Part shown: one piece after another, positions 1,897 through 5,555 of the stretch
Position numbering within the stretch: the stretch's first letter is position 1
Layout: the number at the start of each line of letters is the position of its first letter
DNA from: Longimicrobiales bacterium
Lineage (GTDB): Bacteria; Gemmatimonadota; Gemmatimonadetes; Longimicrobiales; RSA9
NCBI GenBank assembly: GCA_035461765.1
Contig: DATHUY010000037.1
Span: 1-64,000 of the forward strand
Length of the DNA stretch: 64,000 nucleotides
Reading direction: 5' to 3'
Position numbers and translations under genes: made by a program
The notes under the pieces: generated by a model
What the model saw: the letters and a program-made list of their open reading frames with translations, nothing else
The model's database searches: none
What the model was told of the DNA's origin: nothing

Positions 1897-2256
1897 ATGA
1901 GGCGAGCGGGAGTCCCGATGCGGGCATGGGTGGTGGTGATCGCGTGTGCGGCCGGGTTGTCGGCCTGCCGGGACAACGGGCTGGCGGATCGGAATCTGCC
2001 GCTCGAGGAGGCGCAGAACCGCGAGTATGGCTACCAGGTCTACCAGGCGGCGCCCGCCACGCCCGCGATCGCGATGGGCGGCCGCCACTGGGTCGCCTCG
2101 CAGACGGTCGAGACCATTCCCGCTCATGTCCTGGTCCCGGTCGGTACCGCCGAGGGCACGCAGCTCTTCGCCCGCCGCGGCGAGGAGGCTCCCTACGGCC
2201 GCCTCTGGGCGCAGGTCTCACAGGACCGCTGGACGCCATACCTCCGTCTGAACTGA
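1897..2256 (+). CDS. Small lipoprotein of unknown function
   Basis: 119 aa from the ATG at 1897, chosen because GGAGG lies five bases upstream; a GTG at 1876 in the same frame lacks such a site. The N-terminus is a lipoprotein signal with lipobox LSAC near residue 23, so the mature protein is probably anchored in the envelope. The remainder is about 95 residues with a repeated V-P-V-G and W-A-Q-V pattern that could fold as an SH3-like or small beta domain; this is speculative. It lies upstream of the membrane electron carrier and TlpA-like genes on the same strand and could belong to their transcription unit. Confidence 0.65.
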   Translation: MRRAGVPMRAWVVVIACAAGLSACRDNGLADRNLPLEEAQNREYGYQVYQAAPATPAIAMGGRHWVASQTVETIPAHVLVPVGTAEGTQLFARRGEEAPYGRLWAQVSQDRWTPYLRLN

Positions 2257-2359
2257 CCGGCGTTCCGGTCCGGACCTCGGCAGGAGGAAGATCGCGGCTC
2301 CTCCTGCCTGCTCTGCGGGCCCCCGCGGCCGCGGAGCCCGCGACGCGTGCGAGCCGGCC

Positions 2360-3073
2360 ATGATCGCATTGCTGCAGTCGGGGCTCGGCAACATGCTCGA
2401 CCAGAGTCCGCTGCTCGCGATCGCCACCATGTTCGGTGCGGGCCTGGTCACCAGCCTCACGCCGTGCGTCTACCCGATGATCCCCATTACGGCGGGAGTC
2501 ATTGCGGGAACCGCGGGCGACGACGCACCGCGCCGCCGCGTCGTGCTCCTCACCCTGACCTACGTGCTCGGCCTCGCGCTGCTCTATGCCCTGCTCGGCC
2601 TGCTCGCGGGCATGAGCGGAACATTGTTCGGTACCGTCTCCGCCAGCCCCTGGGCCCGGTTCGCGATCGGTAACCTCCTGCTCATCTTCGGCCTGGCGAT
2701 GCTCGACGTCATCCCCGTTCGCGTGCCCCAGGGCCTCACCGCATGGGCCGGCAGCCTCGGCGGCGGCTCCTATCCCGCCGTCTTCGTGCTGGGCGCCACA
2801 TCCGGCATTGTCGCTGCGCCCTGCGGCGCACCCGCGTTCGCGGCCGTGCTCACATGGGTCGCCACCACCGGCAGTCCCGCTCTGGGCTTCACGTACCTCT
2901 TCATCTTCTCACTGGGCATGACCGCGCTCCTCGTCGTCGTCGGCATTTTCTCCGGCACGCTCGCGCGCCTGCCCCGATCGGGACGCTGGATGGTCTGGAT
3001 CAAACGGGCGGCCGGAGTGATCCTCATCGCCATGGCGGAGTATTACTTCATCCAGATGGGAATGGTCTTCTGA
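2360..3073 (+). CDS. DsbD/ScsB/CcdA-type membrane electron transporter
   Basis: 237 aa with six or more hydrophobic segments. It matches the transmembrane domain of DsbD/CcdA proteins, which carry electrons from cytoplasmic thioredoxin across the inner membrane. The two redox cysteines sit in the expected motifs: C36 in LTPCVYP near the start of the first helix, and C155 in APCGAPAF after the midpoint. No periplasmic alpha or gamma domain is fused, so a separate thioredoxin-like partner is needed, and the next gene on the strand is one (18 bases downstream). The ATG at 2360 is used. It differs from the second CcdA-like gene at 37575, so the genome has at least two such carriers. Confidence 0.88.
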   Translation: MIALLQSGLGNMLDQSPLLAIATMFGAGLVTSLTPCVYPMIPITAGVIAGTAGDDAPRRRVVLLTLTYVLGLALLYALLGLLAGMSGTLFGTVSASPWARFAIGNLLLIFGLAMLDVIPVRVPQGLTAWAGSLGGGSYPAVFVLGATSGIVAAPCGAPAFAAVLTWVATTGSPALGFTYLFIFSLGMTALLVVVGIFSGTLARLPRSGRWMVWIKRAAGVILIAMAEYYFIQMGMVF

Positions 3074-3091
3074 TTGTGCATGGAGTCACAC

Positions 3092-3631
3092 ATGAATGAT
3101 ATCCCGGCGTCTGTCCTGCGCCGTCTTCTCCTCGGAGCGGCCGTTTGGTTGATCGCCGTGCTGGCACCCATCGCCGCCGCGGCGCCGCTCGCCGCCCAGG
3201 ATGTCGGCCTCGCCGTCGGCCGTGTTCCGGACGCCGTCCAGCTGGAGGATATCGAGGGCAACGCGTTCGACTTCGCGAGCGTGGTCGGCAGGAAGCCCGT
3301 GCTGATCGAGTTCTGGGCGACGTGGTGTCCGCTGTGCGCTGCGCTCGAGCCGCGGATCCGGGCCGCGAAGCAGGAACACGGGGACGCGCTCGAGGTGATC
3401 ATCGTGGCCGTCGGGGTGAATCAGTCCCCGCGCAGCATTCGACGCCACATCGAGAAGCACCCTCAGCCGGGACGTCTCGTGTTCGACGCGCGCGGCCGCG
3501 CCTCGCGCGCATACATGGCGCCGTCGACGTCATACGTGGTTGCGCTCGATGCCCAGGGACGCGTGGTCTATACAGGGGTAGGTGAGGATCAGAACATCGC
3601 GGCCGCCGCCCGGAAGGCCGTCGGGCAGTAA
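3092..3631 (+). CDS. TlpA-like periplasmic thioredoxin
   Basis: 179 aa from the ATG at 3092, which has GGAG six bases upstream; an in-frame ATG at 3080 is less well placed. A Sec signal or anchor spans residues ~11-35 (cleavage probably after AAQ). The thioredoxin fold carries the redox motif W78-C79-P-L-C82 in FWATWCPLC. Proteins of this type pass electrons received from DsbD/CcdA-type membrane carriers to envelope targets. The membrane carrier gene ends 18 bases upstream, so the two are almost certainly co-transcribed. The convergent neighbour is an exported peroxiredoxin, which makes peroxide reduction a plausible use of the electrons. Confidence 0.88.
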   Translation: MNDIPASVLRRLLLGAAVWLIAVLAPIAAAAPLAAQDVGLAVGRVPDAVQLEDIEGNAFDFASVVGRKPVLIEFWATWCPLCAALEPRIRAAKQEHGDALEVIIVAVGVNQSPRSIRRHIEKHPQPGRLVFDARGRASRAYMAPSTSYVVALDAQGRVVYTGVGEDQNIAAAARKAVGQ

Positions 3632-3662
3632 GGCGGGTGAGCTGTTTCCGCTGTTAATGTGC

Positions 3663-3696
3663 GACCCGGCGGTGCGGCACACCCGACCGCCGGGTC
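3663..3696. terminator. Bidirectional hairpin terminator
   Basis: A perfect 11-bp inverted repeat (3663-3673 and 3686-3696) with a 12-base loop lies between the stop of the TlpA-like gene (3631) and the stop of the convergent peroxiredoxin gene (3708). There is no strong U tract on either side, so termination is inferred from position and stem strength. Confidence 0.65.
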
Positions 3697-3707
3697 GAAC
3701 TCCTGCT

Positions 3708-4283
3708 CTACTGCGCCGTGTCCGGCGGCAGCGTCAGCCGGATGGCCTCCGCCAGCTCTTCATACGCCGTCGGATCGATCTCCCGGAACGGTACTGCCCG
3801 ATATGCGATCCGGCCGTCCGGGCCGACCACGAACAGGTTCCGGTTCGTGGCTGAGCCGCGCGGCGAGAGTGCGCCATACGCACGGCCGACCGCCAGCGCG
3901 CTGTCGCTGGCCATCAGAAACTGGAACTGGTCGTCGCGCGCCCACTCGTACAGCTCCTGAATCGGATCAGCGCTGATGGCGATGAGGACGACGTCCTGTC
4001 CCACGTTGAAAGTCTGCGCGTACTGATCACGGTACGCGTGCATTTGGACTGTTCAGCCGCGTGTCCGTGCCCTGAAGAAGAAAGCGAGGACCACGGTCTT
4101 GCCGGCGTAATCGCGCAGGCTGATCTCCTCCTGCAGCACGCCATGCCGGGTGGCGCCCGGCAACGTGAAGTCGGGCGCGACGGCTCCCACTTCGAGCGGC
4201 GCGGGCATCTCGGTTTCCTGCGCCGCGAGTGCGGCCGGTGCGGCGAGTGCTGCCGCCAGTACGAGTGAGGAAACAATACGCAT
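3708..4283 (-). CDS. Exported peroxiredoxin, probable selenoprotein (TGA = Sec77)
   Basis: The frame opens at ATG 4283 and runs 76 codons to a TGA at 4055-4053. It then continues without any frame change for 114 more sense codons to the stop at 3708, giving 191 aa if TGA is read as selenocysteine. Residues 1-21 are a Sec signal peptide. Residues 30-190 are an AhpC/TSA peroxiredoxin fold (VAPDFTLP, VVLAFFF, later NRNLFVVGPDGRIAY). The TGA falls where the peroxidatic cysteine belongs: T74-R-G-U77-T-V-Q matches the family pattern TxxC. The predicted protein contains no cysteine at all, so Sec would be its only thiol-like redox residue. A SECIS-like hairpin follows the TGA. Alternatives are a recent TGC-to-TGA null mutation or a sequencing error. 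Sequence similarity on both sides of the TGA and intact flanking codons favour readthrough. Confidence 0.8.
4017..4038 (-). promoter_or_regulatory. Bacterial SECIS-like hairpin downstream of the in-frame TGA
   Basis: Reading the minus strand, a perfect 7-bp stem (4038-4032 with 4023-4017) closes an 8-base loop. The loop begins 22 bases after the TGA and its second and third bases are GU. Bacterial SECIS elements lie inside the coding region just after UGA, with the apical loop about 16-37 bases downstream and a G among the first two loop bases; this hairpin meets those rules. The stem was read by eye and not energy-scored. Confidence 0.65.
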
Positions 4284-4403
4284 GTGCGCTCATGCTCCTG
4301 CTGAAGGTTGTACGATCAAGATGACCGCAGCCCGCGGCCGCGGCAAGCGCGGCAAGGCCGCCTGCCGCGTGCAGCCTTCGGCCGGCGGCATTATTGTGGC
4401 CGG

Positions 4404-5555
4404 ATGAGTCACAACAGAACATCGGGAACAGGTCCGCTCCGGGGGTTGCGCGTGCTCGAGCTCGCCCAGAACCTCGCCGGGCCGTATTGCGGTCAGATCC
4501 TCGGGGATCTCGGCGCCGACGTCATCAAGGTCGAGCGCCCGGGCGGCGATGCCGCGCGTACCTGGGGTCCGCCATTTGTCGACGGCACCGGCTCCATCTT
4601 CGCCGCTGCGAACCGTGGCAAGCGGAGCATCGAGCTGGACCTCCGCGACGACGACGGCCGGCGGGTGCTGCGCGCACTGATCGAGCGCAGTGACATCCTG
4701 ATCGAGGCGTTCCGGCCGGGGACATTCGCGGCGATGGGATTCGACTACGAACGCGTCCGCGAGTGGAATGCCGGCCTCATCTACTGCTCCGTCCTCGCTT
4801 ACGGCGAGGAAGGGCCGCTGCGGGATCTGCCGGGTTACGACCCGCTGATGCAGGCGCACGGCGGCCTCATGTCGATCACGGGCGAGCCCGGCACCCGCGG
4901 CTCACGCGTCGGCACCTCGGTGATCGACATGGGCACCGGCATGTGGCTCGTGATCGCGATCATGGCCGCGCTTCGTGAACGCGACGCGACGGGCGCGGGG
5001 ACTCGCCTGAGTGCAGCATTGTATGATACCGCGCTCGCGTGGAATTCGTATCACATCGCCGGCTGTGTCGACACGGGATTCGTGCCGCGTCCCATGGGGT
5101 CGGAGCTGCCCATGATCGCGCCGTATGGAGCGTTCGCGTCCGCGGACGGTGAGATCATGATCGCGGCGGGCAACGACGGTCTGTTTGCCCGACTGTGTGA
5201 CGCGCTGTCACTCGCTGACATGAGCGCGGACGATCGTTTCGACAGCAACGCGGCGCGCGTGGCGCACCGGAAGGAAGTGAACGATGCGGTACGCGGCCGC
5301 ACGCGCACGCTGACGACGGCAGATCTGCTCGTGCGGCTGCGCGACCACGGCGTGCCGTGCGCACCGATACAGGATATCGCCGAAGTGTGTGCCGATGATC
5401 AGACGGGCGCGAGCGGCATGATCGCTCGCAGTGGTGGCGCCACCTCTGTCCGGTTGCCTGTCCGCTTCGACGGCGTACGGCCGGAAGCGGGGGCTCCGCC
5501 GCCGCGTGCGGGAGAGCACACGGCGGCGGTTCTGGCGGAGCTGAGACTCGACTAG
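4404..5555 (+). CDS. Family III CoA-transferase (CaiB/BaiF)
   Basis: 383 aa from the ATG at 4404; the open frame extends 96 bases further upstream, but that part lacks family similarity. Family III CoA-transferases move CoA between acyl-CoA and a free carboxylate. The family start pattern is clear (GLRVLELAQNLAGPYCGQILGDLGADVIKVE), shown here as residues ~15-45, and the likely catalytic aspartate is D175 in VIDMGTG. The substrate cannot be read from sequence. It is divergent from the peroxiredoxin gene (120 bases between starts), and its TAG stop overlaps the stop of the convergent gene at 5552 by three bases. Confidence 0.9.
   Translation: MSHNRTSGTGPLRGLRVLELAQNLAGPYCGQILGDLGADVIKVERPGGDAARTWGPPFVDGTGSIFAAANRGKRSIELDLRDDDGRRVLRALIERSDILIEAFRPGTFAAMGFDYERVREWNAGLIYCSVLAYGEEGPLRDLPGYDPLMQAHGGLMSITGEPGTRGSRVGTSVIDMGTGMWLVIAIMAALRERDATGAGTRLSAALYDTALAWNSYHIAGCVDTGFVPRPMGSELPMIAPYGAFASADGEIMIAAGNDGLFARLCDALSLADMSADDRFDSNAARVAHRKEVNDAVRGRTRTLTTADLLVRLRDHGVPCAPIQDIAEVCADDQTGASGMIARSGGATSVRLPVRFDGVRPEAGAPPPRAGEHTAAVLAELRLD

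Follow-up and report, generated by a model that had tools for sequence, protein, structure and literature searches.

We found that a frame in a 64,000-nucleotide stretch of DNA from a Longimicrobiales bacterium (the whole stretch is referred to below as the window) very probably encodes a genuine selenoprotein, a predicted exported peroxiredoxin with a single selenocysteine (Sec). The case is built on the frame itself, the conservation of its in-frame TGA, a SECIS hairpin (bSECIS) that is conserved and covaries, Sec machinery in the source genome, the co-occurrence of the TGA with that machinery across genomes, and linkage to genes for a thioredoxin and a membrane electron carrier (Table 1).

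Table 1. Features of the window discussed in the text
Feature	Position	Strand	Basis or detail
Putative Sec-peroxiredoxin gene	3708..4283	-	191 aa with U77, TAG stop; AhpC-TSA and Redoxin Pfam matches
UGA for probable selenocysteine 77, in place of the peroxidatic Cys of TxxC	4053..4055	-	Orthologue codon comparison
bSECIS hairpin	4017..4038	-	Arm CGCGUAC 4038-4032, loop CGUGAUCA 4031-4024, arm GUACGCG 4023-4017
N-terminal segment (about residues 1-21, MRIVSSLVLAAALAAPAALAA), a probable Sec-type signal peptide	4221..4283	-	Hydrophobic N-terminus, AxA-like end
TlpA/ResA-like thioredoxin, WCPLC motif, likely start ATG 3092	3074..3631	+	Redoxin and Thioredoxin Pfam
Transmembrane electron carrier of CcdA/DsbD type, preceding the TlpA-like gene	2360..3073	+	DsbD_TM 157 bits

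An in-frame TGA at the peroxidatic position

The original prediction described a frame that continues through one TGA without an indel. Indeed, the TGA of codon 77 is the single internal stop, and the AhpC-TSA homology (Pfam score 92.4 bits, cut-off 26; residues 32-161, with U read as C) lies on both sides of it with no frame shift; the Redoxin Pfam score is 62 bits. The context T74-R-G-U77-T puts the TGA at the cysteine of TxxC, as had been proposed, and codon 77 in 79 distinct Gemmatimonadota orthologues is TGA in 61, TGC in 17 and TGT in 1. The gene has no cysteine codon elsewhere, which bears out the claim that residue 77 would be the sole redox residue. Because the window is 67% G+C, and 82 of its 1537 TGA triplets are flanked by equally long open frame on both sides, an open frame alone is weak evidence; it is the homology on both sides, together with the TGA kept in 61 distinct orthologues, that excludes chance. 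TGA serves as a regular stop codon in the window, terminating 26 of 37 long open frames. Automatic annotation would yield two fragments of 76 and 111 aa, much as anticipated, and the Sec peroxiredoxin gene would be split or dropped.

Close relatives keep the TGA and do not show random stops, and more distant or reverted ones have TGC or TGT. Within the same family, exactly one TGA was found in eight of nine genomes with a close orthologue (at least 67% identity), and none in the ninth, G008. In the TGA orthologues, which come from many independent assemblies, the domain is free of further stops and of frameshifts. The mature chains of these orthologues also lack other cysteines, except for L087 and L090, where both C-termini are uncertain; a few orthologues have a cysteine within the signal-like segment. 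Of 249 Gemmatimonadota genomes, 202 have a match with an E-value no higher than 1e-25. A scan of a genome collection gave 42 loci with titles nearly all from Gemmatimonadota, a number that does not establish confinement to the phylum, as the scan detects close relatives only.

The SECIS hairpin and the selenocysteine machinery

The hairpin downstream of the UGA has a 7 bp stem, an 8-nt loop whose second position is G, a folding energy of -10.5 kcal/mol, and a loop start 21 nt after the UGA. These values fall within the bSECIS limits published in PMC13188914 (a loop of 3-9 nt with G within its first two positions, a distance of 16-37 nt from the UGA, an MFE no higher than -7.5). Folded by itself, the single sequence from the window was uninformative (z -0.71), and an Rfam scan of 3500-4500 gave sub-threshold matches only; the element emerges clearly only when TGA genes are compared with Cys genes and covariation is considered. 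Codons +6 to +11 of the TGA genes read GCG TAC CGT GAT CAG TAC and are fixed at their silent sites, unlike the freely varying codons next to them; in Cys genes the corresponding codons differ and the hairpin is degraded. The exact GCGUAC-CGUGAUCA-GUACGC was found in 58 of 61 TGA genes and 0 of 18 Cys genes. The outer pair, formed by the third positions of codons +5 and +12, is UA in 23, CG in 14, GC in 5, AU in 1 and unpaired in 11 of 54 distinct sequences. Both of its sides changed in 20 of 54 cells, against a shuffled mean of 5.3, and slid registers were all far lower; the five inner pairs are invariant and thus contribute no covariation evidence. Synonymous-recoding z-scores, although individually weak, averaged -1.2 per gene for TGA genes and -0.1 for Cys genes (p 4e-5).

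A search for the Sec machinery, suggested with the original prediction, recovered all four components from the source genome (4.68 Mb in 171 contigs, 99.3% complete): tRNA-Sec with a UCA (tca) anticodon on contig C137 (68.7 bits) and, each above its curated cut-off, selA on C155 (530 bits), selB on C68 (333 bits) and selD on C24 (388 bits). Against the selenoprotein reading, the sel genes are not on the contig of the window, and the estimated contamination of the assembly is 4.86%. Two of eight matches to the tRNA-Sec model passed the gathering score, and the second candidate is a tRNA-Ser according to ARAGORN. The source genome yielded one Sec peroxiredoxin, in a scan for internal TGA that covered two families; seven other AhpC-TSA matches and four molybdopterin-family matches have no internal TGA. 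No second copy turned up when the genome was searched with the SECIS model, though other selenoproteins with a differing SECIS could escape such a search.

Across genomes the TGA codon tracks the machinery. Among the 146 genomes in the matches listed with a codon class, selA was present in 129 of 135 TGA genomes versus 1 of 11 Cys-only genomes (Fisher p ~1e-10). SelB is present in all six TGA genomes that lack selA, above the cut-off in five and at 209 bits in one where the match is truncated at a contig end, whereas no SelB-grade match was found in the seven selA-less Cys-only genomes searched. G008, however, has a Cys-form peroxiredoxin and yet retains SelA and SelB, which counts against the selenoprotein reading; there the machinery has outlasted this Sec codon and presumably serves something else.

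We considered two ways in which the TGA might have nothing to do with selenium. It could be a decayed or miscalled TGC or TGT, in a pseudogene or through sequencing error, leaving no product or a fragment; the two expected annotation fragments and the broken-up assembly would suit this reading. A base-call error or decay, however, would hardly recur as the same TGA in 61 orthologues with otherwise intact domains, nor would silent sites be constrained only where the TGA is present, and we reject this explanation as extremely improbable. General readthrough, or a reassigned code in which UGA means Cys or Trp, draws on nothing besides the in-frame TGA itself. It is at odds with the use of TGA as a terminator in the window, with the uninterrupted AhpC-TSA and molybdopterin-family matches of the genome, with the co-occurrence of TGA and selA/selB, and with the SECIS; we reject it too, as very improbable. 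Decoding of the UGA as Sec is thus the reading that we retain, and Sec would be inserted at residue 77.

A 1-Cys-type layout without the active-site proline

In an AlphaFold model of the window peroxiredoxin (pLDDT 88), helix 77-91 begins with U77, which places this residue at a normal helix N-terminus. The nearest solved structure by both sequence and fold is AhpE of Mycobacterium tuberculosis, a 1-Cys peroxiredoxin with ~31% identity, which differs in having Cys in place of Sec and an aligned chain without a signal-like N-terminus. Of the 79 orthologues, 78 have Thr or Ser at position -3 (T74), and R148, which we take to be the catalytic-type Arg of peroxiredoxins, is invariant in 23 aligned orthologues. 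Position +5 is H, E, N or others, and is Cys in 0 of 79 orthologues; a resolving cysteine is thus absent, and the layout is that of 1-Cys-type peroxiredoxins. BCP/PrxQ thiol peroxidases share the domain (57 bits against NCBIfam PRK09437), but BCP paralogues, which the source genome also has (for example, L002 on contig C165), carry Cys at +5, which every tabulated orthologue of the Sec peroxiredoxin lacks. Export, the other part of the original prediction of a secreted one-Sec enzyme, is likewise supported: judged by hydrophobicity and inspection, nearly all orthologues have a signal-like N-terminus, weak in L127, although these segments are unrelated in sequence, and the peroxiredoxin is probably exported. 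The original prediction did not include the SECIS hairpin, the spread through the phylum, the proline change described below or the linked TlpA-CcdA genes.

Sec-containing peroxiredoxins of other bacteria, mentioned already in the original prediction, are well established as TxxU forms (PMC13188914, PMC5029168, PMC2398784): these papers count 91 selenoproteins in 78 organisms (PMC5029168) and 253 sequences in an ocean survey (PMC2398784), and describe PxxxTxxU as highly conserved (PMC13188914). The prototype, PrxU of Eubacterium acidaminophilum, resembles the window protein in its AhpC/TSA fold and in Sec at TxxC. The window protein, however, scores 51.4 bits against the PrxU equivalog (NCBIfam NF040737, peroxi_PrxU), below the cut-off of 270, and differs from PrxU in its predicted export, in F/YxxxTxxU instead of PxxxTxxU, and in having no other Cys. 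What appears new, as judged from sequence, is a putatively exported, single-Sec, mostly Pro-less clade linked to TlpA and CcdA genes and lying outside the PrxU equivalog.

The window protein has Phe at -7, the Pro of PxxxTxxC. Among Sec forms this residue is F in 40, Y in 18 and P in 3, whereas it is Pro in 18 of 18 Cys forms. The missing proline is a departure within the peroxiredoxin family, membership of which rests on domain and fold. Mapped onto a maximum-likelihood tree, Sec and Cys require six changes. Three Cys genes, L028 (of G008), L063 and L106 (of G104), are nested among the 56 Sec genes of a supported clade (100/97) and are apparent Sec-to-Cys reversions, though the direction of the changes hinges on the root and the bootstrap of the tree is not fully settled. 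Each of the three has a degraded hairpin and Pro at -7, a residue found in 1 of the 56 Sec genes of the clade (L083); the association has p ~1e-4 in a hand calculation that assumes independent rows, which the rows are not. We give about even chances to the idea that Sec relaxes a near-universal active-site constraint, such that Pro gives way to Phe or Tyr and is regained upon reversion; the two positions would then be coupled and switch together between sulfur and selenium chemistry, in an exported enzyme with a dedicated TlpA-CcdA relay. Locus L129 (contig C46 of G100, reverse strand 1970-3115) has tandem Cys-form and Sec-form copies with a 4-nt overlap; the Cys copy is first, and both copies have Pro at -7.

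Linked TlpA-CcdA genes and the proposed reaction

The TlpA-like and peroxiredoxin genes are tail to tail, with 76 nt between their ends. We counted neighbours at 55 Sec and 17 Cys loci, all distinct and with no less than 1.4 kb of downstream sequence. A convergent TlpA-like gene lies within 300 nt at 37 of the 55 Sec loci and a CcdA/DsbD gene within 1500 nt at 38, versus none of the 17 Cys loci for either. This contrast partly reflects shared descent: linkage and Sec are inherited along the same tree, and the Cys loci are mostly from other branches. More telling is that the TlpA-CcdA arrangement persists in several families. The window's CcdA/DsbD protein scores 173 bits against the transmembrane part of the model for TsoB, a rhodanese/DsbD fusion selenoprotein (cut-off 805), better than against DsbD; it is not TsoB.

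In the mechanism that we propose, SelB and Sec-tRNA-Sec would decode UGA 77, guided by the hairpin, which starts in codon +5, and the peroxiredoxin would then be exported. The Sec77 selenolate would reduce peroxide and become a selenenic acid. Since the chain has no resolving cysteine, the selenenic acid would most likely be reduced by an external thiol, probably that of the adjoining TlpA-like thioredoxin, the best candidate; this thioredoxin would in turn receive electrons through the membrane from the CcdA/DsbD protein. The arrangement resembles ScsB-TlpA-PprX of Caulobacter, an electron relay to a periplasmic peroxiredoxin (PMC5403849), in combining a membrane electron carrier, a periplasmic thioredoxin and an exported peroxiredoxin. 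It differs in the single Sec of the peroxiredoxin and in the convergent genes, and the likeness is one of TlpA/carrier gene linkage and homology.

We somewhat favour the linked TlpA-CcdA pair as the reductant of the Sec peroxiredoxin. A selenoprotein reduced instead by a low-molecular-weight thiol or by another periplasmic protein is a less probable but substantial alternative, given that the TlpA-CcdA genes are convergent with the peroxiredoxin gene and not co-transcribed with it as a single operon, that a near TlpA gene is missing at 18 of 55 Sec loci (about a third), and that AhpE, the closest fold, was crystallised after mycothiol exposure according to the title of entry 5id2. The tail-to-tail linkage in several families, with its absence from Cys loci, and the Caulobacter precedent argue for the linked pair. 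A different question is whether the active site reduces peroxide at all, or whether it has a thiol-disulfide, sensor or chaperone role. The loss of the conserved proline, replaced by Phe or Tyr in 58 of 61 Sec forms, speaks for such a role and against simply assuming activity, as the motif alone is insufficient. The retention of T74 and R148, the modelled position of U77 and the absence of a second cysteine for disulfide exchange, however, make it unlikely, and the Sec form would act as a peroxidase.

No description of Gemmatimonadota selenoproteins was found in the literature searched, which included selenoprotein papers and excluded subscription journals. The gene adds a widespread candidate selenoprotein to this phylum of soil and water. 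Natural exchanges between Sec and Cys have recurred at a single active site alongside a linked change of the proline, and they offer a direct test of what selenium permits in a peroxiredoxin. The results also suggest that the peroxide defence of the cell envelope in Gemmatimonadota may depend on selenium supply.
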